Source: Nitrosospira multiformis (lineage in GTDB: Bacteria > Pseudomonadota > Gammaproteobacteria > Burkholderiales > Nitrosomonadaceae). From it: DNA of 58,070 bases. How positions within the stretch are numbered: the stretch's first letter is position 1; every line of letters begins with the position of its first letter. Both the position numbers and the translations under genes were made by a program. Where the stretch lies: contig NZ_FOHI01000013.1 of NCBI RefSeq assembly GCF_900111585.1, forward strand, positions 1 through 58,070. The letters are read 5' to 3'. Below, in pieces: positions 37,515 to 51,681 of this stretch. The notes beneath the pieces are model-generated. The model saw nothing but the letters and a program-made list of their open reading frames with translations. It had not been told where the DNA came from and did no database searches.

Positions 37515-37541
37515 TCGCACTTCATTTCAGGATTGGGAAGT

Positions 37542-37631
37542 AAAAACCCCAGGCTCCATAAACGGTGAAAACGGGGTGTGACTTCGAGGCCTGGGACGCT
37601 AGATTGGGGGTAACTATGCATGGCTATCTTA
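37542..37631 (-). ncRNA. Repeat family C, copy 2 (putative small RNA)
   Basis: Same architecture as 21,475-21,557: CCCAGGC/GCCTGGG stem, inner CATAAACG, then GCTAGATTGGGGGTAAC and GGCTATCTTAG. Confidence 0.45.
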
Positions 37632-37706
37632 GCTCTGTGACAGAGCATCAATCAGTTAATAAAAGTAGATTTAATATTGCTTATTGATTAAATGGAAGAG
37701 AAGCAA

Positions 37707-37834
37707 CAAAAAGGCCCGACGAACGTCGGGCCGGGAGGAGTTTACTGCCATCGCTTCCCTGTTTTGGGAGGGAGAAGCGAGTGGATAGCTTAACAATACA
37801 ACGAAAGCTCTACCGTTAAATACTTAACATATGG
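37707..37834 (-). ncRNA. Repeat family A, copy A3 (putative small RNA)
   Basis: Nearly the same as A1, with a changed but still paired terminator stem (GGCCCGACGT/ACGTCGGGCC instead of GGCCCGGC/GCCGGGCC). It directly borders the LPD38 fragment. Confidence 0.5.
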
Positions 37835-38356: not shown

Positions 38357-38445
38357 GCCCGGATGGTGAAATTGGTAGACACAAGGGACTTAAAATCCCT
38401 CGGGCTTAACCGCCCGTGCCGGTTCGATTCCGGCTCCGGGCACCA
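38357..38445 (+). tRNA. tRNA-Leu(UAA), island integration target
   Basis: Acceptor GCCCGGA with CCGGGC, anticodon loop CTTAAAA (TAA), a long variable arm typical of class II, T-loop GGTTCGATTCC and encoded CCA. The P4-type integrase gene lies 163 bases downstream. Confidence 0.97.
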
Positions 38446-38448
38446 ATT
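38432..38448 (+). repeat. Putative attL of the tRNA-Leu element
   Basis: GGCTCCGGGCACCAATT at the 3' end of tRNA-Leu matches GGCTCCGGCACCAATT at 50,286-50,301 with one base missing. Short and imperfect, so support comes mainly from the arm-like motifs near each end. Confidence 0.55.
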
Positions 38449-38458
38449 CAGTATTTCA

Positions 38459-38608
38459 GACGGTATCAGTTGATACTAAAAGATAAATAAAAACTGATAC
38501 TTGTAGAAATATTAGTGTCTTGACGTATCAAAGTATCGCTTGACATACCGTCAATCTTAGCGGTATCTTTGTCGGTATATTAAATACCGTCAGTTTTAGA
38601 TACCGTCA
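38459..38608. promoter_or_regulatory. Repeated GACGGTAT motifs before the integrase gene
   Basis: TGACGGTAT or its reverse complement occurs at 38,459, 38,545, 38,584 and 38,600, with weaker copies at 38,561 and 38,571. The last overlaps the integrase ATG. The same motif lies twice at 50,201-50,223. These are likely integrase arm sites that also control int. Confidence 0.6.
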
Positions 38609-39807
38609 TGCCCCTTACCGATGTGGCTGTGCGCAATGCCAAGCCTACTGACAAACCATACAAGTTAACGGATGGTGAGGGGCTCTACATGCTGGTCAAT
38701 AGCGCGGGTAAGTACTGGCGCTTTGACTACCGCTATCTTGGAAAGCGCAAGACGCTGGCGCTAGGTGTTTATCCTGATGTTTCTCTGGCTGATGCAAGGA
38801 ATCGACGCAGTAATGCTCGCAAGCTTATTGCGAACGGTGATGATCCGGGCGCAATAAAGCAAGCGGAGAAGCAACGAGCCAAGCAGCTTTCGCTTAATAC
38901 GTTTGAGGCTGTGGCGCGGGAGTGGCACGAAAAGCAATCGGTTAAGTGGTCGCCGAAGAATTCAGCCAGAATTTTGAGCTTGCTTGTGCGCGATATTTTC
39001 CCATCAATCGGCAAGACTCCAATAGCTGAGGTAACCGCAGGAAGCCTTCTTGCTACCGTTCAGAAGATCGAGAAGCGGGGCAATATCGAAACAGCACATC
39101 GAGCAATGCAAACCTGCGGCCAAATATTCCGGTATGCAATAGCCACTGGCCGAGCACAGGCAGACCTAAGCCTGGTTCTGAAAGGCGCTTTAATCCCCGT
39201 AAAAGAAAAGCATCATCCAAGCATTACCGACCCGAAGAAGATAAAACACCTTTTGCTAGCCCTGGATGGGTATAGCGGATCCTTCATTACGCAGCAGGCC
39301 CTAAAGCTTGCTCCGTTGCTTTTTGTGCGCCCTGGGGAGCTTCGTCATGCTGAATGGTCAGAGATTAATTTCGATACGGCTGAGTGGCGTATAGCGGCGG
39401 GCAAAATGAAAATGAAGGCAGTACATCTTGTGCCTTTGCCCAGACAGGCTCTATCCATACTGGAGGAGCTGCGTCCGCTTACAGGACAGGGCAGGTATGT
39501 TTTCCCGGGCGTCAGAAGCTGGTCCAGGCCGATGAGCGAAAACACCGTGAACGCCGCTCTGCGGCGCTTGGGATACGAGAAAGACGAAATGACTGGGCAT
39601 GGGTTCAGGAGCATGGCTTCAACGATTTTGCACGAGCAGGGATGGCCGCATGAGGCAATCGAGAGACAGCTCGCCCACGCCGAACGAAACAAAGTAAGCG
39701 CAGCATACAACTACGCAGAGCACTTACCGAAACGAAGGGAGATGATGCAAGCCTGGGCTGATTATTTGGACAGGCTTAAAACTGAAGGAATTAACACCGT
39801 GACCTGA
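38608..39807 (+). CDS. P4-type tyrosine integrase
   Basis: The 399-residue enzyme has the P4 N-terminal domain (MPLTDVAVRNAKPTDKPY, LTDGEGLYMLV), a core-binding region, and a catalytic domain with Arg in RPGELRHAEW, HGFR (His/Arg pair) and Tyr in AAYNYAEH. Length and all key residues are intact. It integrates elements at tRNA 3' ends, here tRNA-Leu. No ribosome binding site precedes ATG. Confidence 0.95.
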   Translation: MPLTDVAVRNAKPTDKPYKLTDGEGLYMLVNSAGKYWRFDYRYLGKRKTLALGVYPDVSLADARNRRSNARKLIANGDDPGAIKQAEKQRAKQLSLNTFEAVAREWHEKQSVKWSPKNSARILSLLVRDIFPSIGKTPIAEVTAGSLLATVQKIEKRGNIETAHRAMQTCGQIFRYAIATGRAQADLSLVLKGALIPVKEKHHPSITDPKKIKHLLLALDGYSGSFITQQALKLAPLLFVRPGELRHAEWSEINFDTAEWRIAAGKMKMKAVHLVPLPRQALSILEELRPLTGQGRYVFPGVRSWSRPMSENTVNAALRRLGYEKDEMTGHGFRSMASTILHEQGWPHEAIERQLAHAERNKVSAAYNYAEHLPKRREMMQAWADYLDRLKTEGINTVT

Positions 39808-39827
39808 CGGACTTCAGGCAATAAAGC

Positions 39828-39861
39828 GGGATGTAAAGTGTTGCGAGCACTATTACATCCC
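39828..39861. repeat. Inverted repeat after integrase
   Basis: GGGATGTAA and TTACATCCC form a 9-bp stem around AGTG...CACT. There is no T tail, so it may be an operator or an mRNA 3' structure. Confidence 0.5.
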
Positions 39862-39896
39862 TAACCACAACGCAACCTGAAAAGGAGGTACGCATC

Positions 39897-40613
39897 ATGG
39901 CTAACGCCAATTCTACACTATCCAGTGACGCTGCAATCCGCTTGCTGACTTACGCTGGGTGCCGCTGCAATTACTATCGAGGTACTGAAACCGATCTAGT
40001 TGAGGCGGGGATTGTAAAGTCAGAATGGCTGCCCGGGCTACACGGCAACACAAAAACATGTACACGCATCGGATTGGTTGAAGGCGAAATGAAGCTTTTA
40101 CCTTGTGGGGTGCTAGCAACAAGATTCCAGAAGAATAACGGAATCATTCACATATTCAAGGCGAGCAAAAGCACATTCCGGGTTGAGGTAAGGAAACCGC
40201 AAGAAGAAATAGACCGGGAAGAAGCGCGGGAAATCGAAGAGCGGAAGCGGCAGAATTTGAGGGACAAAGTAGAAAGGATGCACGCCGAGAAGAAGCGGGC
40301 ATTAGAAAAGGCTCCGAAAAACCCTGGCGATTTTCTAAAGGACAGGTCCTGGAAAGTTAAGGACTTCTCGGAAATCGTTCACAACCTGTTCAGAAGGGCT
40401 GAAAACGGTTTCCATTACGCTCCTGAGGTTGTTGAAGAGGCGCAAGATTTGATAGCAGACCTTGTTTCCCTTGCTGCAAATGGAAGGGTTTGCTTCGATC
40501 CGATAAGGCAAAAATATTTCCTTGATGACATCGAGGAAAAAGCTGAGAAAGCACACCCTGAATTCTCAGCATTCATGAAGGCAACTCTTGCTGTAGGAAA
40601 AGCTGCCTTATAG
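39897..40613 (+). CDS. Phage/satellite hypothetical protein
   Basis: The 238-residue protein has AAGGAGGT before its ATG. The N-terminal 100 residues include cysteines (AGCRCNYY); the middle is a charged coiled coil (EEIDREEAREIEERKRQNLRD); the C-terminus is mixed. No family is recognised. It is the first gene after int, in the early region. Confidence 0.65.
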   Translation: MANANSTLSSDAAIRLLTYAGCRCNYYRGTETDLVEAGIVKSEWLPGLHGNTKTCTRIGLVEGEMKLLPCGVLATRFQKNNGIIHIFKASKSTFRVEVRKPQEEIDREEAREIEERKRQNLRDKVERMHAEKKRALEKAPKNPGDFLKDRSWKVKDFSEIVHNLFRRAENGFHYAPEVVEEAQDLIADLVSLAANGRVCFDPIRQKYFLDDIEEKAEKAHPEFSAFMKATLAVGKAAL

Positions 40614-40631
40614 CAAGTTAACCCACCCCTA

Positions 40632-40664
40632 GCCCGGCGGGTATCTGCTCGTCGGGCAATTTTT
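40632..40664 (+). terminator. Putative terminator
   Basis: GCCCG and CGGGC flank a GC-rich loop, followed by AATTTTT. It sits between two co-directional genes, so it may attenuate rather than stop. Confidence 0.45.
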
Positions 40665-40676
40665 AAAGGAAAGAAA

Positions 40677-41099
40677 ATGAGCAATGAAACCGAATCAAAT
40701 GAAAGCTTTTTCGCTCGCTATCGAGCAAACAACACTGCTAACGAAAAAGAGTGGGAGGAATTCAACATGCGGCTGATGGAGCAGTTCTGCGCAGATTTCT
40801 GGAAGGCCGGAAATCCTGCTGATGTTCCTGATTGGATCATGAATGAGATTGCAACGGCGTTTATTGGAAGCCTGATTGAAAAAACATCATTGAATAACTC
40901 ATTCCCTTTGCCGTGGAGTCCTGCCGACCGCGTGTTTACGAAAGCCGAAGAGCGAAGGATGAATATCTATCAGGAAATAACCAGGGAGTTGATACGCAAT
41001 GGGGGGAAGGTCGAGGGTGTGATAAGAGAGGTCGCTGAGAAGCACGGCGTTTCCTACGAGACGGCACGGCTTGCTTATTACAAATACAAGCCCAAGTAA
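40677..41099 (+). CDS. Hypothetical protein with C-terminal HTH-like segment
   Basis: The 140-residue protein has GGAAAG before ATG. Its C-terminus, REVAEKHGVSYETARLAYYKYK, looks like a helix-turn-helix. Possibly a regulator of the element; no family is recognised. Confidence 0.6.
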   Translation: MSNETESNESFFARYRANNTANEKEWEEFNMRLMEQFCADFWKAGNPADVPDWIMNEIATAFIGSLIEKTSLNNSFPLPWSPADRVFTKAEERRMNIYQEITRELIRNGGKVEGVIREVAEKHGVSYETARLAYYKYKPK

Positions 41100-41260
41100 C
41101 CTTTTCTAAATTTTCTTTCAAAATTTAGAAAGAATTCTTGTTTATCAGCAACTTATATTATGAAATCATATCGCTGTGTATCGCACAGGCTTAAACAATA
41201 CAGCGAGGTCACATAGGCAAATTTTCGAACAATGCTTTTTATATAGAAGGAGAAAAGAAG

Positions 41261-41470
41261 GTGGAAGCAAGCTACACAATCCCGCAATTCTGCGATGCCT
41301 ATCACTTTAGCCGTGTTCACTACTACACCCTTAAACAACAGGGATTGACTCCCAGGGAATTACGTTTAGGGCGGCGAGTAGTTATAACACGACGTGCGGC
41401 TGAGGAGTGGGAAGATCGGATGAGCTCAATTCAACAACAAAACAAAAAGGAAAATGCAACCAATGAATAA
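41261..41470 (+). CDS. Excisionase-like HTH protein
   Basis: The 69-residue protein starts at GTG after AAGGAG. YTIPQFCDAYHFSRVHYYTL resembles a winged-helix DNA-binding start, as in excisionases. It overlaps the AlpA gene start and is probably co-translated with it. Confidence 0.65.
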   Translation: MEASYTIPQFCDAYHFSRVHYYTLKQQGLTPRELRLGRRVVITRRAAEEWEDRMSSIQQQNKKENATNE

Positions 41471-41678
41471 CAATCTGCCGATCGGCGGTTATATCCGTGA
41501 ATCTGACTTAATCCCTGCCATTGTGCCTTTTTCTCATGCGACTCTTTGGCGTAAGGTCAAATCGGGCGAATTCCCTCGGCCGGTGAAGTTGTCGGCGCGA
41601 ATTACGGCATGGGAAGTTAAGGCCGTGCGCGCTTGGCTTGATTCAAAAACTCAAGAAGGAAATAAAAATGACCAATGA
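41463..41678 (+). CDS. alpA: AlpA-family regulator
   Basis: The 71-residue protein (ATG 41,463; an ATG at 41,454 is possible) has the AlpA pattern: YIRESDLIPAIVPFSHATLWRKVKSGEFPRPVKLS then ITAWEVKAVRAWL. AlpA proteins activate excision or transcription in P4-like satellites and PICIs. Its presence after int fits a satellite. Confidence 0.9.
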   Translation: MNNNLPIGGYIRESDLIPAIVPFSHATLWRKVKSGEFPRPVKLSARITAWEVKAVRAWLDSKTQEGNKNDQ

Positions 41679-41967
41679 CAACAAAATAAAAGGCGCTGCC
41701 CCCGACCAAGAGAACGCGCCTTCCAAATGCTTCAAGCAAGAGAATACCAAGGAATCGCGCATTTTGAAAGAGCTAAGCTCCGGGCGTACTTTAAACAGGT
41801 TTGAAGCTGAGCGTCTTGGAGATCATTGCTTACACTCGACCATCGCAACCCTTCGGCGCAAAGGATATTCGTTTTACGACCAATGGGAGCATGTGCCAAC
41901 CCGCTTTAAAAAAGAAACGCGGGTAAAACGGTACTCCTACGTCGGGATGAGGCGTGAGCAAGTCTAA
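41668..41967 (+). CDS. HTH protein (HTH_39-like)
   Basis: The 99-residue protein starts within the end of alpA (11-base overlap) after AAGAAGGA. RILKELSSGRTLNRFEAERLGDHCLHSTIATLRRKGY and KETRVKRY match the small phage HTH type annotated helix-turn-helix 39. It probably binds DNA. Confidence 0.8.
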   Translation: MTNDNKIKGAAPDQENAPSKCFKQENTKESRILKELSSGRTLNRFEAERLGDHCLHSTIATLRRKGYSFYDQWEHVPTRFKKETRVKRYSYVGMRREQV

Positions 41968-42436
41968 GAGGCTCGCACTCAAGGATGCGCAGCAAAAAAG
42001 AGGATCCGGTCCGTTCATTCCCCTGACCTTTGATGTGCTGCGTAGCGCTGAGTTTGCATCCTTGAGCTCTTACGCGACAAAATTACTATTTGACCTACTC
42101 CAGCAGTACAACTTAAGAAACAATGGCGATCTAGGGATGAGTTTTGAGCACGTCATGAAGCCTAGGGGCTGGAGGAGCAAAGAAACGTTCAACAATGCGC
42201 GTAGAGAACTTCTTGAGAAGGGCTTTATTATCATCACCAGACAAGGCGGCCTGCGAGAGTGTTCGTTATATGCCGTCACGTTCTTCGCAATAGATGAATG
42301 CGACGGCAAGTTAGATGTGTCGGCGACGCGCTCCCCGCTTAATCTGTGGCGGAAACATTCTCCTTTAAAAATTAAGTCGTCCAGTACGCCTGCCGTACCA
42401 TATACCCCCTCTGTAAGTACGCCTGCCGTACAATAG
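41954..42436 (+). CDS. Replication-type winged-helix protein with iterons in its 3' end
   Basis: The 160-residue protein starts at GTG, overlapping the preceding gene. FASLSSYATKLLFDLLQQYN and EHVMKPRGWRSKETFNNARRELLEKGFI are a helix-turn-helix region like that of small Rep or primase-like phage proteins. The last residues read TPAVPYTPSVSTPAVQ, coded by two 15-bp iterons. A role in replication of the satellite is inferred from this arrangement. Confidence 0.6.
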   Translation: MSKSKRLALKDAQQKRGSGPFIPLTFDVLRSAEFASLSSYATKLLFDLLQQYNLRNNGDLGMSFEHVMKPRGWRSKETFNNARRELLEKGFIIITRQGGLRECSLYAVTFFAIDECDGKLDVSATRSPLNLWRKHSPLKIKSSSTPAVPYTPSVSTPAVQ

Positions 42437-42518
42437 GAATAGCAAATTAGCCCGTTTAGGTACGCCTACCGTACTTAAATGGGCCTTTTTATGCCATTTA
42501 TTTGTACGCCTACCGTAC
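42384..42518. repeat. Four 15-bp iterons GTACGCCTRCCGTAC
   Basis: Copies start at 42,384, 42,417, 42,460 and 42,504. Each has palindromic arms GTACG/CGTAC around CCTGC or CCTAC. Spacings of 33, 43 and 44 bp are near three and four helical turns, so proteins would bind on one face. The first two lie inside the preceding gene. Likely an origin or operator. Confidence 0.8.
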
Positions 42519-42575
42519 ACCTTCTAAGAGTTGCCATCTGTATAGAAAAAAATGAGGCGGTTAGGCTTTTACCTG

Positions 42576-42640
42576 GTTCATAAAATTATGAACAGTCACG
42601 GTGACGTCACGCGTTACGTAACGTTACTGAAACGTTACGT
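42576..42640. promoter_or_regulatory. Cluster of palindromes
   Basis: GTTCATAA-AA-TTATGAAC, GTCACGGTGAC, GTGACGTCAC, CGTTACGTAACG, GTAACGTTAC and AACGTTACGT overlap within 65 bp. With the iterons they fill 42,437-42,834 upstream of the capsid gene and could be an origin core or a late-gene control site. Confidence 0.6.
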
Positions 42641-42834
42641 CCCTTGCAAATTCTGCCAACGGCAAATATTGCCGGAGGTTCCTCCCAGTTGTTGCCTCCC
42701 AATTTGCTAGTAAATACTCGTTCGGATTTTCATTTGTAAGTCCATGTAAATAGAAGTTTTATCTTTAGCGGGTTATATCAGTAGCATAGTCCTTGTGGTA
42801 TAAATACTTCTAGGTCAATTACTTAGGAGCATTT

Positions 42835-44064
42835 ATGATCCACCACATCAAGGAGCAACGTGCCCTGGCTGTCGCAGAAATGCGCGGCATGGTCGAAAAA
42901 GTGCAAGCCGAAAAACGGAATCTTTCTGCTGATGAAGCAAAGATATTCGACAGCCTGAAAGCAAAGATTACCTCTTTAGAGGAAGAAGAAACCCGCGCAA
43001 CCTTCCTGGCAGAAGCTGAGCGGCGCATGAGCGGCACCCCGGTTGATAAGGGCCTGGCCAATCTGGAATCGAACGTTTCAATCGTAGAGGTTCTGCGCGC
43101 ACAAATGGAAGGCCGTGCATTAAGCGGCGCTGCCGCCGAATATTCTGCTGAGTGTGAACGGCGCAACGGTCGCAAGGCATCGGGCGTCTATGTGCCGCTT
43201 TCAGCCCTGGAGTCACGCGCTGCCAACACGACTACCACCGCAGGGCAAATCGTTCCTACCGAGCACCGGCCAGATTTGTATATCGAACCTTTCCGCAATT
43301 CACTTCTGGCGCGCAAGATGGGCGCACGCTTGCTGCCCGGGCTGGTTGGCAACGTCAGTATGCCGAAATATAAAACCGGAATGACAAGCGGCTGGGTCGC
43401 AGAGGATTCGGCGCTGACTACCAGCGGCATGACGTTTGAAAGCGTTACCCTGACACCGAAACACTGCGGCGGGATTGGCGAAATCTCAAGGCAATTATTG
43501 CAACAGAGTTCGCCTGCCGTGGAAGAATTGATCCGGAACGATCTGTCGTATCTGTTGGCGCAGGCGATCGATACCGCCCTGATAAAAGGCGGTGGCACCA
43601 ATGAACCGAAAGGCGTGCTCGCCACCACCGGAACCCAAACGGGCAATCTGGCGACAATGACATGGGCCAATGTCCTTGCGATGCTGGAAAAGCTGGAAAT
43701 CTCCAACGCTACCGCAGTTAACTGGCTGACCTCGCCGAAGGTAAAGACCAAGTTTTCCAAGACGCTAAAGGAGACCGGACTGCCTGGCTATCTTCTGGAA
43801 GGCGGCAGTGTGGCAGGCTTGCCTCTGTTTTCCACTAATCAGGCACCGGAAAAAACCGGCACCCCGAACACCGGGATAGCGATCCTGGGCGATTGGTCAC
43901 AAGTGATGCTGGGGGTCTGGTCAGAGATCGACCTACTCTTGAATCCATTTGCCGAGACTCCTTACTCGAAAGGCAATGTGCTCTTGAGAGCAATGTGTTC
44001 CGTAGATATTGCAATTCGGCACCCCGAGGCGTTTGTAATAGCGCAAGACATTTCGCTGGCTTAA
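42835..44064 (+). CDS. HK97-type major capsid protein
   Basis: The 409-residue protein has an N-terminal coiled-coil delta domain (about 1-105, KEQRALAVAEMRGMVEK) that is removed by the prohead protease, then the HK97 fold: SMPKYKTGMTSGWVAEDSALT, LTPKHCGGIGEISRQLL and KGGGTNEPKGVL. GGAG precedes ATG by 6 bases. It is followed by protease and portal genes. This order is the reverse of HK97, where portal comes first. Confidence 0.95.
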   Translation: MIHHIKEQRALAVAEMRGMVEKVQAEKRNLSADEAKIFDSLKAKITSLEEEETRATFLAEAERRMSGTPVDKGLANLESNVSIVEVLRAQMEGRALSGAAAEYSAECERRNGRKASGVYVPLSALESRAANTTTTAGQIVPTEHRPDLYIEPFRNSLLARKMGARLLPGLVGNVSMPKYKTGMTSGWVAEDSALTTSGMTFESVTLTPKHCGGIGEISRQLLQQSSPAVEELIRNDLSYLLAQAIDTALIKGGGTNEPKGVLATTGTQTGNLATMTWANVLAMLEKLEISNATAVNWLTSPKVKTKFSKTLKETGLPGYLLEGGSVAGLPLFSTNQAPEKTGTPNTGIAILGDWSQVMLGVWSEIDLLLNPFAETPYSKGNVLLRAMCSVDIAIRHPEAFVIAQDISLA

Positions 44065-44077
44065 ACGGAGGCGCGCA

Positions 44078-44674
44078 GTGACTACCCAAGCCTTCGAAAT
44101 ACGTTCGGGAGGGGAACTACGCGCAGTCTCTCCCGGCAAGCTTGCGGGCTACGCGGCAGTATTCAATTCTCAAAGCCAGGACCTGGGAGGCTTTGTCGAG
44201 CGCATCCTGCCTGGCGCCTTCAAACGCTCACTGACGAAACCCGACAACATTAGAGCCCTTCTGGAACACGATCCGCAGCGTCTGTTAGGACGAGTGGGAG
44301 CGCGCACCCTTACCCTTCAGGAAGACAAGAAAGGCCTGTACTTCGAGCTATCCCTGCCGGATACCAGCTATGCCCGTGATCTTGGCGTGTTGGTTGATCG
44401 CGGGGATATATCGGGTTGCTCCTTCGGTTTCCATGTACCGGATGGAGGCGCTAATTGGGATATGAGATCAGGCCAGTTAACGCGGGACCTGATTGCCATT
44501 GATTTGCACGAAATAACCATCACCGCGAATCCTGCTTATCTCGATACCACTGTTGCCAAGCGCAGCATGGAAGAGTGGAGAGACAGCCAGTTAAAGGGAA
44601 ACATCCGCTGGCTGGAAACGGTGGACGATGATGACGATGATTGGATGGGAAGGCGATGCATCCGACTCTACTAG
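44078..44674 (+). CDS. HK97-family prohead protease
   Basis: The 198-residue protein starts at GTG after GGAGG. GYAAVFNSQSQDLGGFVERI, LEHDPQRLLGRV (active His), and DRGDISGCSFGFHVP (Ser) are S78/U35 prohead protease motifs. It matures the capsid protein encoded upstream. Ends in an Asp-rich stretch overlapping the portal gene. Confidence 0.94.
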   Translation: MTTQAFEIRSGGELRAVSPGKLAGYAAVFNSQSQDLGGFVERILPGAFKRSLTKPDNIRALLEHDPQRLLGRVGARTLTLQEDKKGLYFELSLPDTSYARDLGVLVDRGDISGCSFGFHVPDGGANWDMRSGQLTRDLIAIDLHEITITANPAYLDTTVAKRSMEEWRDSQLKGNIRWLETVDDDDDDWMGRRCIRLY

Positions 44675-45849
44675 ACCGTGCCCTCAATTTCATTGGCCTG
44701 GAGCGGCGCGCGTATAACGCACAGGATCCATCCTGGAGCCATCCCTTGCTGCAAGGCGGGAGTGTAACAACAGCACGGGCTGAAAGCCTATCAGCGGCAT
44801 ACGCCTGTGTTGCTGCCATCAGTGAAACAATAGCATCCCTGCCACTGATCCTTTACCGGCGCACTGACGATGACGGCAGGGAGCGAGCGTCGAATCATCC
44901 TTTATACCGCGTATTGCACGATCAAGCGAACGAGTTCCAGACAGCCCTGGAGTTCCGCGAAATGATGCAAGCCATGACGCTGCTACGAGGCAATGCTCAC
45001 GCTGAAATCATCCGCGACAATGGGGGACAGGTTATCGCGTTGGTTCCACTCCTTCCCGGCACGGTAACTACCCTGCAGCTTGATAATGGTCGTATTGCCT
45101 ACGATGTGACAGACACAAAGGGGCGAGTGCGGCGCCTGCTTAGGCATGAGGTATTACACCTTAAGCACCGCTCCAATAATGGTCTGGTGGGGGTATCGCC
45201 TATAACCGCAAGCCGTGAGACGTTCGAACTTGCGCTATCTGAACGCGAGCACGGCAATTCAACCTATGAGAACGGCACAAAGCTATCGGGAATACTCAAT
45301 TTTAAAAACAGTGTGGGTCCTCAAAAGCTCGAAGAGATTCGAGAAGCCTGGCACAAGAAGTACGCGGGGGGAGGTAACACTGGCAGGGTTGCGGTGCTCC
45401 AGGGCGACGCGGATTACAAACCTCTCTCCATGAGCATGGAAGATGCGCAGTGGATCGAAGCACGTCAATTCTCTGTTGAAGAGATAGCCCGCCTGTTCCG
45501 CGTCCCACCTACCATCATAGGAGACCTCAGACACGGCAACTATTCGAACAGTGTCGAGATGAACCGGGTATTCGTAGTCCACACCCTGCGCAGGCACATG
45601 ACCATGTGGGAGCAGGCTATCAGCTCATCATTGCTCACACCGGCTGGCAGGAGGCTCTACTTTGCTGAGCACAGCGTGGAGGGATTGTTGCGCGGGGATA
45701 GCTCCAACAGAGCGGACTTCTACAGCAAGGGAATAACAGATGGATGGCTCACGGTCGATGAGGTCCGGAAGTTTGAAAACCTTCCCAAGTTAAGCGATGA
45801 GGATGTGAGACGGATCAATGACAGAAATCACCAGCAGCAACAACTCTAG
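44656..45849 (+). CDS. HK97-type portal protein
   Basis: The 397-residue protein starts at ATG 44,656 after GGGAAGG and overlaps the protease gene by 19 bases. AYACVAAISETIASLPL, LLRGNAHAEII, KHRSNNGLVGVSPI, and FSVEEIARLFRVPPTIIGD are portal motifs. Length is normal. It forms the DNA entry ring. Confidence 0.95.
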   Translation: MHPTLLDRALNFIGLERRAYNAQDPSWSHPLLQGGSVTTARAESLSAAYACVAAISETIASLPLILYRRTDDDGRERASNHPLYRVLHDQANEFQTALEFREMMQAMTLLRGNAHAEIIRDNGGQVIALVPLLPGTVTTLQLDNGRIAYDVTDTKGRVRRLLRHEVLHLKHRSNNGLVGVSPITASRETFELALSEREHGNSTYENGTKLSGILNFKNSVGPQKLEEIREAWHKKYAGGGNTGRVAVLQGDADYKPLSMSMEDAQWIEARQFSVEEIARLFRVPPTIIGDLRHGNYSNSVEMNRVFVVHTLRRHMTMWEQAISSSLLTPAGRRLYFAEHSVEGLLRGDSSNRADFYSKGITDGWLTVDEVRKFENLPKLSDEDVRRINDRNHQQQQL

Positions 45850-45866
45850 AGCGGTGCGTCCCCTCC
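45844..45866. repeat. TAGAGCG motif copy 1
   Basis: CTCTAGAGCGGTGCGTCCCC overlaps the portal stop. Related copies are at 45,931, 46,414 and 48,531. Repeats of this type before a small terminase gene may be packaging sites. Confidence 0.45.
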
Positions 45867-45930
45867 GCGTGCATACCCGCGAAATTGAAGGGGGTGGGTG
45901 TCACGCAGAAAAATCACCAGAACGTACAGG

Positions 45931-45989
45931 CCTAGAGCGCGCCGTCCCCCTTCCTTTCATAACTGTAATCAATTTTTCTAAAAATGGCC
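45931..45989 (+). repeat. TAGAGCG motif copy 2 with shared 55-bp leader
   Basis: TAGAGCGCGCCGTCCC, TTTCATAA, and TTTTTCT.AAAAATGGC are repeated at 48,533-48,590. This copy ends at the start codon of terS. A candidate cos or packaging site. Confidence 0.5.
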
Positions 45990-46391
45990 GGCAGAAAATC
46001 CTCAGCTAACCTTTCTATTGTCCCACCTTCAACCGGCAAAGATTCCCGGCTCTCCGCTCCCCGATTTCTCACTACTCGCCAGGCGCAGCTCTGGAGAGAG
46101 ATCACGAATTCCAAGCCTGCGAACTGGTTCACAAGAGACATGCAATCTTTGCTTGTTGGATACGTGAAAGCCATTGCTTCTCACGAAGCGCTCTCCAAGC
46201 GTGTTGAGTCCGGAGAGCTTCAGCTGGAGCTAAAAGACGAAAACCGGCTGTACGCAATGCAAGAGCGCCAAGCCCGGTTAATGCAGTCATTCGCAACCAA
46301 ACTTCGCCTGACGCAGCAATCACGCTGGCAACCAAAAACAGCCTGGGATAAAGGCAGCAAGCCAGACGGGGCAAGACCATGGGACCACTGA
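45984..46391 (+). CDS. P27-type terminase small subunit
   Basis: The 135-residue protein has RFLTTRQAQLWREI, NWFTRDMQSLLVGYVKAIASH and a C-terminal SFATKLRLTQQSRW followed by ARPWD, a typical P27 small-terminase outline. It recognises the packaging site. No large terminase follows, which is abnormal for a phage. No ribosome binding site precedes ATG. Confidence 0.85.
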   Translation: MAGRKSSANLSIVPPSTGKDSRLSAPRFLTTRQAQLWREITNSKPANWFTRDMQSLLVGYVKAIASHEALSKRVESGELQLELKDENRLYAMQERQARLMQSFATKLRLTQQSRWQPKTAWDKGSKPDGARPWDH

Positions 46392-46486
46392 CAAAATCAC
46401 GGCAACCTTTTGCTCTAGAGCGCGCAGGTAGTCAAATTTTTACGCAGCCAGTTCATAAAAACCGTTTTTTTGACGAGGTTGCATAA

Positions 46487-46861
46487 ATGACAGCACTTCA
46501 CGAATATATCTCTCATCACGTAAACAAGCCCTTTGAATGGGGTAAAAACGATTGTTGTACGTTTGCTATTAGCTGGCTTGGGCTGTGTACCAGCCGGGAT
46601 TACCTGACGGAGCACCGGCCCTGGAGATCGGCTAGAGAAGGGATGCGAAAACTAAAAGACCTGGGCGGTCTTTCGGCTTTATTCCAAAAACACTTGAAGC
46701 AGATTAACCCAAATATGGCGCAAGACGGCGACCTGACAATCTACCAGGGCGCAGCGCATCTATTTAGTGGCCGCCACATTGTTTCTGTTGGCGAAGAAGG
46801 ACTGGTTTTTACAGACCGATCCGTTGTTAAGGAGGCTTGGAAATGCCCCCAGCGTTTATAG
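46487..46861 (+). CDS. Phage tail-assembly protein (DUF6950-like)
   Basis: The 124-residue protein begins with a segment (KPFEWGKNDCCTFAISWLG) that carries a Cys/Asp-Cys motif of NlpC/P60-like phage tail proteins of this type, with a His later (SGRHIVSVG). It precedes a tail-tip gene and overlaps it. It could be a peptidoglycan-active tail component. Confidence 0.75.
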   Translation: MTALHEYISHHVNKPFEWGKNDCCTFAISWLGLCTSRDYLTEHRPWRSAREGMRKLKDLGGLSALFQKHLKQINPNMAQDGDLTIYQGAAHLFSGRHIVSVGEEGLVFTDRSVVKEAWKCPQRL

Positions 46862-47895
46862 CTGCAATTCCAGGAATCATTGCTGGCGCCACTTTGGCGG
46901 AAATAGTCACAGTGGCCTCCATTGCCCTTACCGTCGGCACCACGGTATTCGGCGCGGTTCAACAGAAAGCGGCAGCAAAGAAAGCAAAGCGCCGGGCGGC
47001 ACAGGCGAGGGAAGATTTTCTTAATTCGCTCCAAGAGCGCACGATAACCCGCATTGCTACAGATGCTCCGCACCGGTACGTTTACGGCCGCGCAATGGTT
47101 GGGGCGGATATTGTGGCAATTCTGTCCAGCGGTCCAAATGAGGAATTCAAGCACTTGGTCTGCGTTCATGCCGCACATGAGAGCGATGGGATCGAGAAAA
47201 TTTATATCAATGGTAAGGAACTGGGCCCGCTCGATGCCGACGGCTTTGTTACCAGTGGGGAATATTACTCAACCAAGACCGAGAGCGTAACAGAGACATT
47301 CAGTGCGGCTCCGTTCACGCTCGCGCACATGCCGAGCAGCGCGGTCCGGGTGGTAGCGTATGGTACATGGATTTCCGGCGCATTCCGGTTTCCCTCGTCC
47401 GGAGAGGTTCCTTATACCGTATCAGGCAAAACGATTACGGTAACAGCCGCGCCGACCTCGCCATTCCCCTTTGGCGGGACGATGCAGATCACGCATTACA
47501 GTGTGAGCTATCAGTACCAGACAAATACTTCGCAGGTGCGCGTTCAAAAACACCTGGGAGCCCCCGGGGATCCTGCTGATGCTACTTTACTGGCGGAATG
47601 TCCGGACAAGTGGAAATCGACAGCAACGCTCACGGGCTTTACCTACACGGTAATCCGTCTGGATTTGAGGCAACCCGAATTTCAGGGAGGCGTCCCTGAT
47701 ATAAAAGTCCTGATGCGCGGCAAGAAACTGTATGACCCCCGCACGGGTGAGACGAAATGGAGCCAGAATCCAGCGCTTGCCACCTATGACTACCTCACTT
47801 CAGAGATGTGTGGCGTTAACCCCGCGGATATTCCGCTATCCAATATCATCACAGCAGCCAATGTCTGTGATGAGCAAGTTCCGGGACTATGTTAA
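46843..47895 (+). CDS. Tail-tip (J-like) protein, C-terminally truncated
   Basis: The start at 46,843 follows GGAGG. The 350-residue product has a hydrophobic N-terminus (AAIPGIIAGATLAEI...), a KKAKRRAAQ basic segment and domains typical of phage host-specificity J proteins (RYVYGRAMVGADIVAILSSG, EKIYINGKELG, LATYDYLTSEMCGVN). Full-length J proteins continue for several hundred residues. Here the frame ends just after AANVCDEQVPG, at the edge of a 139-bp tandem duplication. Confidence 0.85.
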   Translation: MPPAFIAAIPGIIAGATLAEIVTVASIALTVGTTVFGAVQQKAAAKKAKRRAAQAREDFLNSLQERTITRIATDAPHRYVYGRAMVGADIVAILSSGPNEEFKHLVCVHAAHESDGIEKIYINGKELGPLDADGFVTSGEYYSTKTESVTETFSAAPFTLAHMPSSAVRVVAYGTWISGAFRFPSSGEVPYTVSGKTITVTAAPTSPFPFGGTMQITHYSVSYQYQTNTSQVRVQKHLGAPGDPADATLLAECPDKWKSTATLTGFTYTVIRLDLRQPEFQGGVPDIKVLMRGKKLYDPRTGETKWSQNPALATYDYLTSEMCGVNPADIPLSNIITAANVCDEQVPGLC

Positions 47896-48116
47896 TGAAT
47901 AGAAGCTTTACTGTTAAATGCAAAGACGGTTTACTGACAGCCTTGGCAACCCCATGCCATGTCTCTCAAGCGTTCAATCCAATATCATCACAGCAGCCAA
48001 TGTCTGTGATGAGCAAGTTCCGGGACTATGTTAATGAATAGAAGCTTTACTGTTAAATGCAAAGACGGTTTACTGACAGCCTTGGCAACCCCATGCCATG
48101 TCTCTCAAGCGTTCAA
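47839..48116 (+). repeat. 139-bp perfect tandem duplication
   Basis: Two adjacent identical 139-bp units (47,839-47,977 and 47,978-48,116) with TCCAAT at both ends. Each unit holds the end of the J fragment and the start of the aspartic protease gene, and 139 is not a multiple of 3, so the first copy of the protease start encodes only a short dead end. Confidence 0.92.
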
Positions 48117-48528
48117 TCCAATTAATGGAACTCAGGAATACCCAAGAATTGAGTTTGACGCCCTATGGGATACAGGTTCGACCAAATCAGTAATAACCCA
48201 GCGTGTCGTCCAGGCATGCGGGTTAAAACCTATAAGAAAAGGCTTTACACAAGGTGTTAATGGGATAGGAAAGAGTCATGCTTACGTGATAAATCTCTCT
48301 CTTCCCGACAAGATTACCTTCTATGAACTGACTGTCGTTTCAACGAACCCAGGCAATGTATGGTGGGACGTGCTGATCGGCATGGACATAATTTCAACCG
48401 GCGAGTTATCAATAAAAAATGTTAACTCTAATACTGAATGGTCATTCAGTTATGGGCCTCAACAGAAGGTAGATGCAGCCTCAATGCGTCCAGCTAGGGG
48501 AGGGGGAGTGCAAATCTCTATCTCCTGA
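48028..48528 (+). CDS. Retropepsin-like aspartic protease
   Basis: The 166-residue protein (ATG 48,028 or 48,034) has IEFDALWDTGSTKSVIT, the DTG(S/T) active-site motif, and a later DVLIGMDIISTGEL, typical of retropepsin-like domains. Such bacterial proteins are about 120-170 residues and act as dimers. Its 5' part is duplicated upstream. It is an unexpected gene in a tail operon and could be cargo. Confidence 0.75.
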   Translation: MLMNRSFTVKCKDGLLTALATPCHVSQAFNPINGTQEYPRIEFDALWDTGSTKSVITQRVVQACGLKPIRKGFTQGVNGIGKSHAYVINLSLPDKITFYELTVVSTNPGNVWWDVLIGMDIISTGELSIKNVNSNTEWSFSYGPQQKVDAASMRPARGGGVQISIS

Positions 48529-48530
48529 GG

Positions 48531-48590
48531 CTCCAGAGCGCGCCGTCCCATTCGCTTTCATAAATCTATACAATTTTTTCTGAAAAATGG
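48531..48590 (+). repeat. TAGAGCG motif copy 4 with repeated leader
   Basis: CCAGAGCGCGCCGTCCC followed by TTTCATAA and TTTTTTCTGAAAAATGGC matches the leader of terS at 45,931-45,989. After the ATG only 18 codons follow before a stop. Confidence 0.5.
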
Positions 48591-48600
48591 CTAAGAGATC

Positions 48601-48634
48601 AAACCCGGTGGGCCAGCCCTCGGGGTTTCTCTTT
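48601..48634 (+). terminator. Putative terminator
   Basis: AAACCC and GGGTTT flank GGTGGGCCAGCCCTCG, followed by CTCTTT. It would end the protease transcript. Confidence 0.45.
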
Positions 48635-48657
48635 ACCTGAGGCTCTATAATCGATTT

Positions 48658-48784
48658 ACATATGTTAGGTATTTCATAGTAAACCTTTCCTTATATTGTT
48701 AATCTACTCACTCGCTTATCTCTCCCAAAATAGAAAAGCGATTGCAGTACCCCCGCCCGGCTTATGCCGGGCTTTTTCTTTTTT
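48658..48784 (+). ncRNA. Repeat family A, copy A4 (putative small RNA)
   Basis: In + orientation: AGGTATTTCATAG (degenerate palindrome), TATATTGTTAATCTACTCACTCGC, hairpin CGCTT...AAGCG, GATTGCAGTACC, then GCCCGGCTTATGCCGGGC and a T-rich tail ending the element. Confidence 0.5.
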
Positions 48785-49215
48785 TATTTCTGCTATATTG
48801 AAATTGCAGGGCGGCATATCCCTGCTTCTTTACGCTCCCTTTTAAACCCGCTTCTGCGGGTTTTCTTTTTGCAGAGAGGGGAAGGCTCTACCAGAAGCCC
48901 TACAATCGATTTAAATTAAGGGGTAGGCTCCCTTACTATTAAAAATTGGATTAAACTCAACCTGAGCCTTGCAGTGAAGCGTAGGGTAGGGCAGAGCTGA
49001 ATCTCTTCCATTGTTGCAGAAGAAGAGGGTTTAAGGAAAAGGGTTCGGGAGCTGGAGGAGGAGTTGCAGAAGATTGGTGATACCTGATACTGTACTTTGA
49101 TGCAGTAAGTCTATTAATCTGCCTGTTCAACAATACAAAATTAAAAAACTTAACTAGCTGGGCATGGAATGCTTGTAAGCTTTAAAAATAAAAATATTCC
49201 AATAAGAGGGTTAAA
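48785..49215. other. Gene-free stretch with terminator and coiled-coil fragment
   Basis: A terminator hairpin (AAACCCGC/GCGGGTTT) lies at 48,844-48,870. At 49,011-49,087 a frame without a start reads LRKRVRELEEELQKIGDT before a stop, related to the piece at 22,300. Nothing else is recognised. Confidence 0.5.
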
Positions 49216-49530
49216 ATGAATAACGATAGTTCCGATGTTGTATCTCCACCAAACTTCAGTGCCAATAATTTTATTATGGTGACAGGGTCTCGGGAGCTCG
49301 GTTTAATCTTGGGCCAGTCACGTCATATTTTTGACAGTAAGACTGGTAATCATGTGGGGCAAATAAAAGATTGGCATGCGAGTTACAGCATAAGCCCGGT
49401 CACTGCAAAGCAGTTGTTGAAGGCTTTGGACGATGCTATAAAAAATTATGAAGATAATTTTGGGGCAATCCAAGAGGATAAACTCGAAAGAAAGAAAAGT
49501 CAGGAATCTGGCGAAACTGAAGCGGTCTAA
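49216..49530 (+). CDS. DUF3467-like protein
   Basis: The 104-residue protein contains ELGLILGQSRHIFD, WHASYSISPVTAKQLLKALDDAIKNYEDNFGAI, which follows the DUF3467 outline (SPxxAKxLxxxLxxNIxxYExxFG). The function of the family is unknown. It has a weak AGAGGG ribosome binding site. Confidence 0.6.
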   Translation: MNNDSSDVVSPPNFSANNFIMVTGSRELGLILGQSRHIFDSKTGNHVGQIKDWHASYSISPVTAKQLLKALDDAIKNYEDNFGAIQEDKLERKKSQESGETEAV

Positions 49531-49535
49531 AAAGT

Positions 49536-50126
49536 ATGTATGCCTCTTTGGTTTTATCCAACCAGGCTGTAGGGTTTAGTGCTGAGTATGAGTCAACCGA
49601 AAAAGATATTTTATTCGTCAGCGGCTCTTCCCAATCAGAAGATAATAAAATTACGGAGAATACTGAGGCCTCAAAAATAATAATAACGCTGGAAATATCA
49701 GATTTGGTTATTTCCAGCAAAATCTCATCTGGTCCTATTGAGATATTAAGCAATACTGGAGATATTGGCATGGAAGCCAAGATTGAAAAGATAGAGTCTG
49801 ATATTTCGAATATTGGAAAAAGATTGGATTCTATTGATGCGAGTGTTAAAAACGTTAACGCAACAGTTGATCCTATGAGAGGAATTAAAGCGCATGTATG
49901 GTTCGCCAATGCAATTGCCACGCTAACTTTTGCGGCACTTGGAATTATTGCTAATTTTCTTTGGAATAATATTTCCTCTCTGGATGGGAAGGCTCACGAA
50001 TTAACGAAGGATGTCTCTGCTATTAAAACTGATATTAATTACATCAAATCGGACATCAAAGAACTAAAAGAGAATACTAACTCGAAGTTGGATAAGCTCT
50101 TGGAGAGATCATCCAATAACCAATAA
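49536..50126 (+). CDS. Coiled-coil membrane protein
   Basis: The 196-residue protein follows the previous gene by 5 bases. The C-terminal half has a coiled coil (KIEKIESDISNIGKRLDSI), a membrane segment (about 122-142, FANAIATLTFAALGIIANFLW) and a second coiled coil. The N-terminal part is Ser- and Ile-rich and may be a poor start. Possibly cargo. Confidence 0.55.
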   Translation: MYASLVLSNQAVGFSAEYESTEKDILFVSGSSQSEDNKITENTEASKIIITLEISDLVISSKISSGPIEILSNTGDIGMEAKIEKIESDISNIGKRLDSIDASVKNVNATVDPMRGIKAHVWFANAIATLTFAALGIIANFLWNNISSLDGKAHELTKDVSAIKTDINYIKSDIKELKENTNSKLDKLLERSSNNQ

Positions 50127-50153
50127 TAAGCTTATTCATAATGTCTTATACTT

Positions 50154-50181
50154 AAAAAAACCCGCTTCGGCGGGTTTTTTT
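50154..50181 (+). terminator. Intrinsic terminator
   Basis: CCCGC, loop TTCG, GCGGG with A's before and T7 after, bidirectional. It ends the 49,216-50,126 pair. Confidence 0.9.
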
Positions 50182-50200
50182 GTGATTGAGGTAGAGATAT

Positions 50201-50223
50201 TGAACGGTATTTTTGACGGTATC
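50201..50223. promoter_or_regulatory. Right-end GACGGTAT motifs
   Basis: TGAACGGTAT and TTGACGGTATC, the motif that is repeated in front of the P4 integrase gene, lie 63-85 bp from the putative attR. They could be the integrase arm sites of the right end. Confidence 0.55.
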
Positions 50224-50285
50224 CCGTTAATAATCCTTAATTAAAAGTTAAAATAAACAAATACTTAATTATTATATTCGGATGA

Positions 50286-50301
50286 GGCTCCGGCACCAAT
50301 T
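50286..50301 (+). repeat. Putative attR of the tRNA-Leu element
   Basis: GGCTCCGGCACCAATT differs from the tRNA-Leu end by one lost G. It gives an element of about 11.9 kb. Confidence 0.5.
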
Positions 50302-50370
50302 TTAGCTTATTATTCAGCATCTTACCTAAAGCATAGTGTTCTTGTGGTGGTACTTTCATGGTACCATCTA

Positions 50371-51681
50371 ATGAAACTATTGCTTGGTCGCATTCTCTCT
50401 TTAGACGTCCGCTACACTTACGCACGGGGTAAGGCATTCTATTACCAGCGCAAAATTCCCAAGGATTTACTTCACCGCTATCCCGGTTCAACTCATATCA
50501 AGGTTAATCTAAAGACCAGCGACCCCGCATTAATTACAAAAAGGGTTCGTGACCTCAATAGACAGCACGAGTCAACGTGGGCAGCACTTCGCGGAAACCC
50601 TGATCTACAGCCATTCAGTATCCGAGAAGCAGCGGTGAAGTTCCCCGCAGAGTATGGGCTGAAACCTCAGTCAGCAGCCAATGATGAGCATACCTTTGGT
50701 CGCCTCATAGATGTCTTTGAAGGGAAACATGAAGCGTATGCCCAGGGTGATGAGGAGTTGTACTGTAGTGCGGAGCCTGAGGAATTCCTGGACCCGGTTG
50801 AACTGGAATCACTCCAATTACTGAATGAGGAGCCTAAGTTTCGCCTTAGCGATGCCCTCCAGCTCTACCTTCACGGCCACAAGAATAAAGATAAAAAGAA
50901 GTTCCGAGCGGATACAGAGAGAGCATGGGGAAGACTAATAACGCTAATTGGGGATAAGGAACTTGAACAAGTAACCCGAGCAGATGCAAATGAATTTGTC
51001 TCCAGGGGAATTGCGGAAGGCGTTAAGACTACAACGATAGAACGACACATAAGTATTCTCAGGGCAATATTCAACGTGGCTATCGTAGAAAGGGAGATAG
51101 CTAAAACAAATCCTTTTCTTCGCTTGAGAATCCCAGGTCTAGGGGAGGATTCAAAGACTAGAGAGCCTTTCGATAATGAGCAGTTAGTTACCCTCGTCCA
51201 GGAGTGCAAGAAAGAGGATGATGATATTCGTTGGTTGCTAGCCCTACAGATAGACCTAGGATGCCGCATAGCTGAAGCTGCGGGACTGACATTGGAGGAC
51301 TTACACCTAGATGTTCCCATTCCATACGTCTCCATTCGCCCTCATCCTTGGCGCACCCTTAAGACTAAATCCAGTAAGCGAAATGTACCCCTGGTAGGAG
51401 TTTCCCTATGGGCAGCACAGAGAATTATCCAGGCAGCACAGCCGGGGCAAACTCATGCTTTCCCCCGGTACACCGATAAGAACGAATGCAAGGCTACTCA
51501 CGCTTCCAATACGCTAAATAAGTGGATTGAGTCCCGGTTAGGGGTCAATAAGACAACTCATGAGTTTCGCCACACCATCAGAGACCGCTTGCGTAATGTG
51601 GGGGCACCAAAGGATATTCAGGATGCAGTGGGAGGATGGGGTAAGGAAGATATTGGGGACAAGTACGGATTGCGAACATGA
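50371..51681 (+). CDS. Second tyrosine integrase, C-terminally shortened
   Basis: The protein (436 residues from ATG 50,371; a GTG at 50,344 is possible) has an N-terminal DUF6538-like start (VRYTYARGKAFYYQRKIPKDL), Arg in LGCRIAEAAGL, the His/Arg box THEFRHTIRDRL, and the catalytic Tyr in IGDKYG. The sequence ends three residues later, at an abrupt rise in GC, where related proteins usually have 10-25 more residues. Likely truncated by a junction, activity uncertain. Confidence 0.8.
   Translation: MKLLLGRILSLDVRYTYARGKAFYYQRKIPKDLLHRYPGSTHIKVNLKTSDPALITKRVRDLNRQHESTWAALRGNPDLQPFSIREAAVKFPAEYGLKPQSAANDEHTFGRLIDVFEGKHEAYAQGDEELYCSAEPEEFLDPVELESLQLLNEEPKFRLSDALQLYLHGHKNKDKKKFRADTERAWGRLITLIGDKELEQVTRADANEFVSRGIAEGVKTTTIERHISILRAIFNVAIVEREIAKTNPFLRLRIPGLGEDSKTREPFDNEQLVTLVQECKKEDDDIRWLLALQIDLGCRIAEAAGLTLEDLHLDVPIPYVSIRPHPWRTLKTKSSKRNVPLVGVSLWAAQRIIQAAQPGQTHAFPRYTDKNECKATHASNTLNKWIESRLGVNKTTHEFRHTIRDRLRNVGAPKDIQDAVGGWGKEDIGDKYGLRT

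Follow-up and report, generated by a model that had tools for sequence, protein, structure and literature searches.

The window analysed here is a 58,070-nucleotide stretch of Nitrosospira multiformis DNA (contig NZ_FOHI01000013.1), and it holds an 11.9-kb island inserted at tRNA-Leu(taa). We assign the island to a lineage of capsid-forming satellites and reject a deleted prophage as its origin. Judged by its portal protein, it appears to descend from terminase-bearing elements that carry the capsid gene first, the order seen in capsid-forming phage-inducible islands (cf-PICIs). From comparison of sequences, we think it fairly probable that the island is a satellite of cf-PICI order that gave up its own HNH, small terminase (TerS) and large terminase (TerL) genes, became tied to a helper resembling the Nitrosospira prophage P003, and alters the tail tip through a K-like protein, a truncated tail-tip protein J (mini-J) and a retropepsin. 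The presence of a cut-down tail-tip protein beside a protease suggests that the satellite may rewire its helper's tail as well as borrow it.

The listed genes are all on the + strand. The integrase, orf2, orf3, the excisionase-like protein, AlpA, the HTH_39 protein and the Rep-like protein with its four iterons come first, followed by capsid, S78 protease and portal. After the portal come TerS, a DUF6950 protein, the J fragment, the retropepsin and two cargo open reading frames (ORFs).

38357..38445, +: tRNA-Leu(taa), its 3' end forming attL, with the core GGCTCCGGGCACCAAT at 38432-38447
38608..39807, +: tyrosine integrase, by domain match (Arm-DNA-bind_3 / Phage_int_M)
39897..40613, +: orf2 (MANANST.. 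family), no function assigned, adjoining the integrase gene in several related satellites
40677..41099, +: orf3, possible HTH protein by a weak match, with homologues in L089 and L158
41261..41470, +: excisionase-like protein (phrog_66, E 0.0038, weak)
41454..41678, +: AlpA-like regulator (PF05930, E 9.5e-7)
41638..41967, +: HTH_39 winged-helix protein (PF14090)
41954..42436, +: Rep-like protein, named from position and homologues, without a family match
42384..42518, +: four 15-bp iteron-like repeats, GTACGCCT[AG]CCGTAC
42835..44064, +: HK97-fold major capsid protein (PF05065, E 1.6e-36; phrog_617, E 4.6e-72)
44078..44674, +: prohead serine protease, S78 (PF04586, E 1.7e-44)
44641..45849, +: portal protein (PF04860, E 4.4e-104)
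45846..45863, +: degenerate copy of the cos-like site, three mismatches to the 18-base core
45897..45983, +: cos-like site upstream of TerS, core CTAGAGCGCGCCGTCCCC at 45932-45949, the same as the P003 core
45984..46391, +: small terminase, TerS (phrog_12559, E 3.8e-23), 58% identical to the TerS of prophage P003
46487..46861, +: DUF6950 protein, tail-tip K-like (PF22262, E 1.9e-25); its counterpart directly precedes J in P003 and P004
46843..47895, +: mini-J, the N-terminal 350 aa of a tail-tip protein J of ~1,060 aa, ending ..AANVCDEQVPGLC
47838..48115, +: 139-bp exact tandem duplication across the mini-J/retropepsin junction
48028..48528, +: retropepsin-like aspartyl protease with active-site WDTG (PF13975, E 4.2e-7)
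48497..48600, +: further copy of the cos-like site, its core at 48533 with two mismatches, then the initial codons of a TerS that has been lost (ATGGCTAAGAGATC..)
49216..49530, +: DUF3467-like cargo ORF (PF11950, E 4.9e-6)
49536..50126, +: coiled-coil cargo ORF without clear family
50286..50300, +: attR core GGCTCCGGCACCAAT, one G fewer than attL

The original prediction, made from the letters of the sequence and a list of ORFs, had named many of these features. Insertion at tRNA-Leu was confirmed together with the core repeat at attR, domain matches agreed with the integrase, AlpA, the HTH protein, the HK97 capsid, the prohead protease and the portal, and the proposed iterons correspond to the four repeats. 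The excisionase-like ORF was matched only weakly. The gene called a P27 small terminase is indeed a small terminase, but it has no Pfam match at E ≤ 0.01, and the P27 label is thus not supported by Pfam. None of the island ORFs matched a large terminase, as predicted. The stated absence of tail genes did not hold up: three intact genes had been overlooked, all after TerS, and these encode DUF6950, the N-terminal third of tail-tip protein J (ORF 46837-47895; phrog_5616, E 2.3e-32, and phrog_31, E 2.9e-17) and then the retropepsin.

We compared the head module with those of prophages and other elements. Relatives of the capsid, protease and portal, 57-87% identical and in capsid-first order, are present in three other Nitrosospira genomes, and in a search of 61 genomes, three members of the genus gave close matches to the capsid, at 58-64% identity. 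Identity between the island portal and the portals of prophages P003 (G003:C16) and P004 (G004:C24) is 27-31%. Scanning IMG/VR with the portal alignment gave 61 contigs. Among the 48 of these designated L154-L201, the capsid lies upstream of the portal in 46 and the other two begin in the protease or portal; the remaining 13 of the 61 are not capsid-first. We then examined a maximum-likelihood portal tree of 61 of 66 rows, from which five rows too short had been dropped and which included no cf-PICI named in the literature. Here, all 50 capsid-first rows group in a single clade (100/99), from which the 11 other rows, P003 and P004 among them, are separate; several of these 11 are long branches.

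Both checks proposed with the original prediction, on the branching of the capsid genes and on tail operons in relatives, came out on the side of a satellite: the portals branch as just described, and no tail operon is present where both element ends are in hand (L163, L156 and L160). L156 (integrase to portal, then a tape measure) and L163 are each bounded by a 17-bp repeat of a tRNA-Ala end, 11.0-11.3 kb apart (11.3 kb in L163). L163 has its genes in the order integrase to portal, HNH, TerS, TerL, with two small ORFs and no tail operon after TerL. For the other capsid-first relatives, represented mostly by contigs of 4-16 kb, contig ends limit the test: probes made from P003 tail proteins found more than one cassette in 0/50 capsid-first relatives, a count in which remote tail genes would be invisible. 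The original prediction had kept a deleted prophage as its alternative. A decaying prophage would account for the presence of TerS, K and part of J while TerL, tail tube and lysis genes went unmatched in family scans, and for the damaged attR core. We regard it as very improbable in view of the capsid-first order, the portal clade apart from P003 and P004, the same order of the cassette after the portal in L157, L159, L166, L167 and L170, the open reading frames, and the bounded or circular relatives that lack a tail operon.

Within the capsid-first clade, the window (row L154) falls in an 11-row subclade (100/100) together with L025, L155-L160, L166, L167 and L170, and this subclade is nested among terminase-bearing rows from Nitrosospira and similar contigs. 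The terminase-bearing arrangement is seen in L023, which reads tRNA-Ser, integrase, AlpA, Rep-like, capsid, protease, portal, HNH, TerS, TerL and ends 688 bp after TerL. L023 TerS and the TerL probes matched in 0/11 subclade rows, and tail genes follow the portal in 10 of the 11. DUF6950, mini-J and retropepsin occupy this position in L154, L157, L159, L166, L167 and L170. In L155 the contig breaks off after the start of J, and a tape-measure match is found at this position in L156, L158 and L160. Between integrase and Rep, L158 and the window are 94-100% identical (orf2 excepted, at 52%), yet L158 has tape-measure sequence, in two ORFs, after its portal, indicating that the slot after the portal has been exchanged. 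Over 51 capsid-first contigs including the window, this slot holds an own terminase in 36, a tail cassette in 10 and neither in five. In the island itself, neither TerL nor HNH found a match, and TerS is the only packaging gene of the HNH-TerS-TerL set; general family scans turned up no head-tail connectors between portal and attR, although no search was aimed at connectors. These findings together point to a subclade of head-forming satellites in which the own terminase was traded for helper-type tail parts. With its tail genes, and lacking both TerL and HNH, the island does not qualify as a strict cf-PICI. What stands of the earlier cf-PICI-like assignment is the capsid-forming satellite lineage.

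Two side observations concern the same slot in other elements. In L024 (11915-14353), capsid, protease and portal precede an 812-aa frame that, read by eye, starts like an HNH protein and continues like a helicase or restriction protein; this may represent an independent loss of the terminase cassette. The distant capsid-first contigs L185, L194 and L200 have one or two ORFs of ~100 aa directly after TerL that resemble head-tail connectors by eye.

A further link to the P003-type phages is a cos-like motif, which consists of a G-run, ~26 bases, CTAGA[GC]CGCGC, and TTTCATAA. It is located immediately 5' of TerS in P003, in P004 and in satellites with such a TerS. In both prophages it lies in the gap between HNH and TerS and occurs once per 40-kb stretch at E ≤ 0.01. 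The 18-base window core at 45932 is identical to the P003 core, and the satellite L066, which resides in P003's genome, has the same 18 bases. Other copies in the window are found at 48533 (two mismatches) and, weaker, at 45846 and 46393. A strict pattern of the motif matched 12 distinct places in 8/23 Nitrosospira genomes, 11 of them in loci treated here, and the reversed control pattern had 0 matches in the 23 genomes, ruling out a chance repeat. One more cos-like site, at G019:C6:1060196-1060261 (L153), lies near ORFs that look lysis-like and tail-like by eye, with no TerS match.

Our assignment of the motif as a putative cos relies on where the PAJU2 and D3 records end, and on no end from a Nitrosospira phage or satellite. 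Pseudomonas phage PAJU2, whose TerS is 33% identical to that of the window, has a linear record that ends ..CTTCTAGAC and starts CGCGCCCG.., and it is thus cut exactly in the motif (..CTAGAC/CGCGCC..). The D3 record junction adjoins the motif, with a weaker model match (E 4.4e-4, compared with 3.9e-9 for PAJU2 and 1.2e-7 for KPP5665-2, in a 1,000-base search). The ends of both phages were reportedly mapped on virion DNA. In KPP5665-2, too, the motif precedes TerS; this record begins with the TerS start codon and is thus uninformative on cos ends. The many copies had suggested a late promoter, an idea that we set aside for cos on the strength of the PAJU2 and D3 record ends. If the motif were a promoter activated by the helper, with the satellite packaged via another signal, this would fit the presence in several satellites of between two and five matches, of which some directly precede the first morphogenesis gene and others TerS, and the near constant spacing from motif to ATG. 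Such a promoter has little chance of being the right explanation, given the PAJU2 record opened inside the motif, the D3 record opened next to it, and the single position per 40-kb stretch in the HNH-TerS gap of P003 and P004.

Helper-type cos matches (E ≤ 1e-3) were found in 0/36 capsid-first contigs with an own terminase, in 8/10 with a tail cassette and in 1/5 with neither, a contrast that is not phylogenetically independent, most of the 36 being distant. Among terminase-bearing rows with a portal identity of at least 72%, the count is 0/7, and three of these contigs end within 600 bp of the portal.

We next consider the tail genes themselves. Full J proteins measure 1,055 aa in P003 and 1,086 aa in P004. 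The satellite mini-J proteins end after ~350 aa at ..CDE-x-x-x-GLC in 12/12 aligned sequences and also in L167 and L170, which makes 14/14 among mini-J of at least 297 aa; the sole variant is GLCP in L092. In IMG/VR we found 56 J loci and classified 50, leaving out the weak matches L261-L266. Eight encode a mini-J (347-358 aa) and 35 a full J (910-1646 aa), seven are cut by a contig end, and there are no intermediates; six of the eight mini-J contigs were also in our first mini-J set. A retropepsin gene lies within 900 bp downstream of 8/8 mini-J and 0/35 full J genes in this collection. The median dN/dS of mini-J among satellites is 0.105 (30/66 pairs with finite dS), suggesting purifying selection at a dN/dS of about 0.1.

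In a tree of J bodies without the loop, mini-J and full J are interleaved, with four changes between the two forms on the best tree and three to five in bootstraps. A single change occurred in 0% of bootstraps, and strongly supported branches force two. Satellites thus seem to continue to acquire J sequence from phages but to retain the truncated end. A single origin of mini-J by descent is accordingly unsupported for the gene body, which is interleaved with phage J, though the truncated end is shared. The loop (residues 168-217) matches the J of the prophage in the same genome in 2/2 testable genomes, at 95% between L066 and P003 and 93% between L072 and P004; the loop of the window mini-J has a 92% match in L217, a full J from IMG/VR. 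An AlphaFold model of mini-J is of moderate quality (pLDDT 71, pTM 0.58). At E ≤ 0.001 it has nine PDB fold matches, each to a tail or tail-tip chain (DT57C, T5, lambda, T1, Sf11), with low TM-scores of 0.20-0.40 by query; a profile search with mini-J against PDB sequences gave 0 matches.

The retropepsin scores 30.9 bits against PF13975 (cut-off 28.2). Its homologues are 44-94% identical to the window protein, retain WDTG in 8/8 and were found in 9/150 genomes searched, all among the 23 Nitrosospira. At the junction of mini-J and retropepsin, the two genes overlap by 7-10 bases in nine of 12 loci and abut within four bases in two; in the window they are parted by the 139-bp duplication, which spares one intact copy of each. 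We also collected 26 distant IMG/VR relatives (L093-L118; 26-41% identical). In nine of their neighbourhoods (L093-L097 and L100-L103) J was matched in none, and we rejected the idea of an ordinary phage gene. There, the relative is preceded by an ORF of ~80-110 aa, mostly with a GKYLVIKD-like motif (..GKYLVIKD..VVGVYD..). The short ORF and distant retropepsin make up a two-gene cassette, and L092 has a second such copy beside its mini-J one.

The tail genes could in principle be passengers, that is, stretches of helper DNA that recombination trapped between cos copies and that persist as shared homology, without a role for the proteins. Recombination of mini-J bodies with phage J, the cos copies that flank the cassette in several satellites, and the 139-bp duplication at the window junction would all fit. 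We consider this improbable: the same truncated end stands beside a retropepsin in 14/14 diverged loci with a dN/dS of about 0.1, the two genes overlap or abut in 11/12 loci, and the retropepsin is itself conserved (44-94% identity, WDTG in 8/8) and does not occur within 900 bp after any of 35 full J genes.

In lambda and T5, the N-terminal hub region of J contacts K, L and the tape measure. Mini-J keeps this region without the rest of J and thus probably enters the tail initiator, which we consider reasonably likely to be the target of K, mini-J and retropepsin. In the mechanism that we propose, helper infection or induction would trigger excision through AlpA and the excisionase, and the Rep-like protein would drive replication at the iterons. 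The satellite carries capsid, protease and portal genes, from which it could assemble its own procapsid. Helper TerL, with TerS from satellite or helper, would then cut the helper-type cos and fill the satellite heads. Helper tails would join these heads, their tip altered by K, mini-J and retropepsin, with mini-J entering the tail initiator alongside helper J or in its place to give chimeric tails or fewer helper tails. In sister satellites the same slot is filled by a tape-measure protein, another part of the initiator. The satellite probably uses the helper terminase and probably reprograms the helper tail tip. A more specific proposal, to which we would give somewhat less than an even chance, is that the lineage swapped self-packaging for helper cos and terminase plus an exchangeable tail-initiator cassette that remodels the tail tip of the helper. 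The cassette would hold either a tape measure or K together with a retropepsin dedicated to it and a truncated J matched to the helper, and a J loop taken over from the resident helper would act as the key to specificity.

The three proteins may instead form a module for interference with the helper or for host defence, in which mini-J acts as a decoy for the tail initiator, with a dominant-negative effect, and the protease cleaves J or the tape measure, the outcome being a smaller number of helper tails. The retention of the hub part and loss of the rest in 14/14 loci would suit a decoy, as would the match of the loop to the resident prophage in the two testable genomes, and inhibition of tail assembly is a known satellite-borne defence, as described for Tai in the accessible part of PMC11364771. 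We rate this explanation as unlikely, since the satellite itself needs tails and since near full-length tape measures (665-666 aa in L077, L156 and L160) suggest tail use rather than poisoning. Chimeric tails and helper interference are indistinguishable from the present data.

Several points weigh against our preferred reading of a satellite that relies on helper packaging and alters the helper's tail tip. With the receptor-binding part expected to be absent from mini-J, a tail containing only mini-J would be expected to fail at adsorption, an argument against simple chimeric tails. The interleaving of mini-J with phage J means that part of the purifying signal may stem from phage ancestry via recombination. 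The L066 mini-J is frameshifted near its N terminus, two more loci (G016:C8 and G011) have mini-J remnants only, and L025 is a subclade member with no tail gene match. On the packaging side, the cos contrast is weakened by the relatedness noted above, L159 and L160 have core matches after the portal but no cos match at E ≤ 1e-3, and several cos copies per satellite are unusual for a cos element. A P003-type TerL was unmatched in the window genome at E ≤ 0.001, which leaves no resident helper in the assembly, and docking of a helper TerL on the satellite portal is presumed. Finally, the attR core, short of one base, could impair excision of the window island.

We compared the island with known satellites, which steal or remodel heads and borrow tails. 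The cf-PICIs, reportedly the subject of a study by Alqurainy et al. in 2023, have the head order capsid-protease-portal. The island shares with them this order, an integrase at a tRNA gene, AlpA and a length of ~12 kb, and its portal nests among capsid-first elements with their own HNH-TerS-TerL. It differs in having a helper-type cos and TerS without TerL and HNH, and in that K, mini-J and retropepsin fill the slot where its capsid-first relatives have HNH-TerS-TerL. A strict cf-PICI carries its own packaging genes, according to the available text of PMC10690885.

For satellite-encoded tail parts, the closest comparison is with PLE of Vibrio cholerae. In the portion of PMC12987554 at hand, PLE virions contain the satellite's tape-measure protein (TMP) and hub protein, the tail parts encoded being TMP, TAC and baseplate hub; the authors call chimeric tails previously unobserved, and some cf-PICIs are mapped with putative tmp genes (Extended Data Fig. 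10). PLE chimeric tails and these tmp genes may, by analogy, serve as precedents for tail-part satellites. PLE11 virions use helper capsid proteins with the PLE's own TMP and hub on a contractile tail, and neither a truncated J nor a protease is reported for PLE in that portion (PMC12987554), whereas the island, known here from its genes, has its own head genes, a truncated J-type hub and a protease. Satellites of the SaPIbov5 type combine cos packaging with a capsid homologue, as far as the available part of PMC8569155 goes, and resemble the two further islands of the window genome described below; the window island differs from them in its complete capsid-protease-portal set and its tail-tip genes. 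Tai likewise comprises satellite-borne genes that act on phage tail assembly, but is presented in the accessible part of PMC11364771 as a separate family of defence proteins, whereas mini-J is a fragment of a tail protein.

A literature search on satellites with a truncated tail tip found no paper. Another, limited search found no defined satellite-helper pair for ammonia-oxidising bacteria, which is not proof of absence in print. If our reading is true, these bacteria would gain such a pair: P003/P004-type Nitrosospira prophages are candidate helpers, and with a shared cos-like site the question of why satellites meddle with tails becomes testable.

The island is bounded on the left by the 3' end of tRNA-Leu(taa) and on the right by a repeat of this end at 50286-50300; the att core CTCCGG(G)CACCA is present twice in the window, at 38434 and 50288. 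The attR core has one G fewer than attL, and its flank CGGATGAGGCTCCGG is otherwise kept and is found again at the attP of a circular relative, L160. This tape-measure-type metagenome contig is 11.2 kb long, and its last 117 bases repeat bases 9-125, giving a circle of ~11.1 kb. The right end is joined to the integrase gene via CGGATGAGGCTCCGGGCACCAAG, an attP with the tRNA-Leu 3' end. A closed circle with attP indicates that the satellite family exists as excised or packaged DNA. The window integrase is 96% identical to that of L066, found at the same tRNA in another Nitrosospira genome, and homologues of the Rep-like protein (67-88% identical) have the same location in L024, L089 and L091. 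The original prediction had called the island partly decayed, and this finds weak support: the damage consists of the 1-bp attR-core deletion, the 139-bp duplication and, after 48533, a TerS start without its gene, and the main frames are open.

A second tyrosine integrase, of DUF6538 type (50344-51681), begins 43 bp past the attR core and is followed by an unassigned ORF. We treat it as outside the island, possibly part of a neighbouring island or a remnant. Diverged inverted copies of parts of the segment after the last cos copy (48631-48916) lie upstream of the tRNA at 37089-37833, and are perhaps the remnant of another satellite end. An exact 18-mer from this segment recurs at the C14 island end, and the genome has no further exact copy.

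The same genome contains two more satellites (L027-L030), at G000:C14 ~343388-353230, with one end near tRNA-Met, and at G000:C7 ~60819-68410, at tRNA-Ala. Both have a different, 376-aa HK97 capsid, and the window portal and protease were unmatched in them; the C14 island also carries mini-J, retropepsin and TerS. Elsewhere, L077 combines a 665-aa tape measure with TerS, its capsid unmatched, and in L069 a phrog_2048 tail protein follows the retropepsin, with similar ORFs in L070, L072 and L090.

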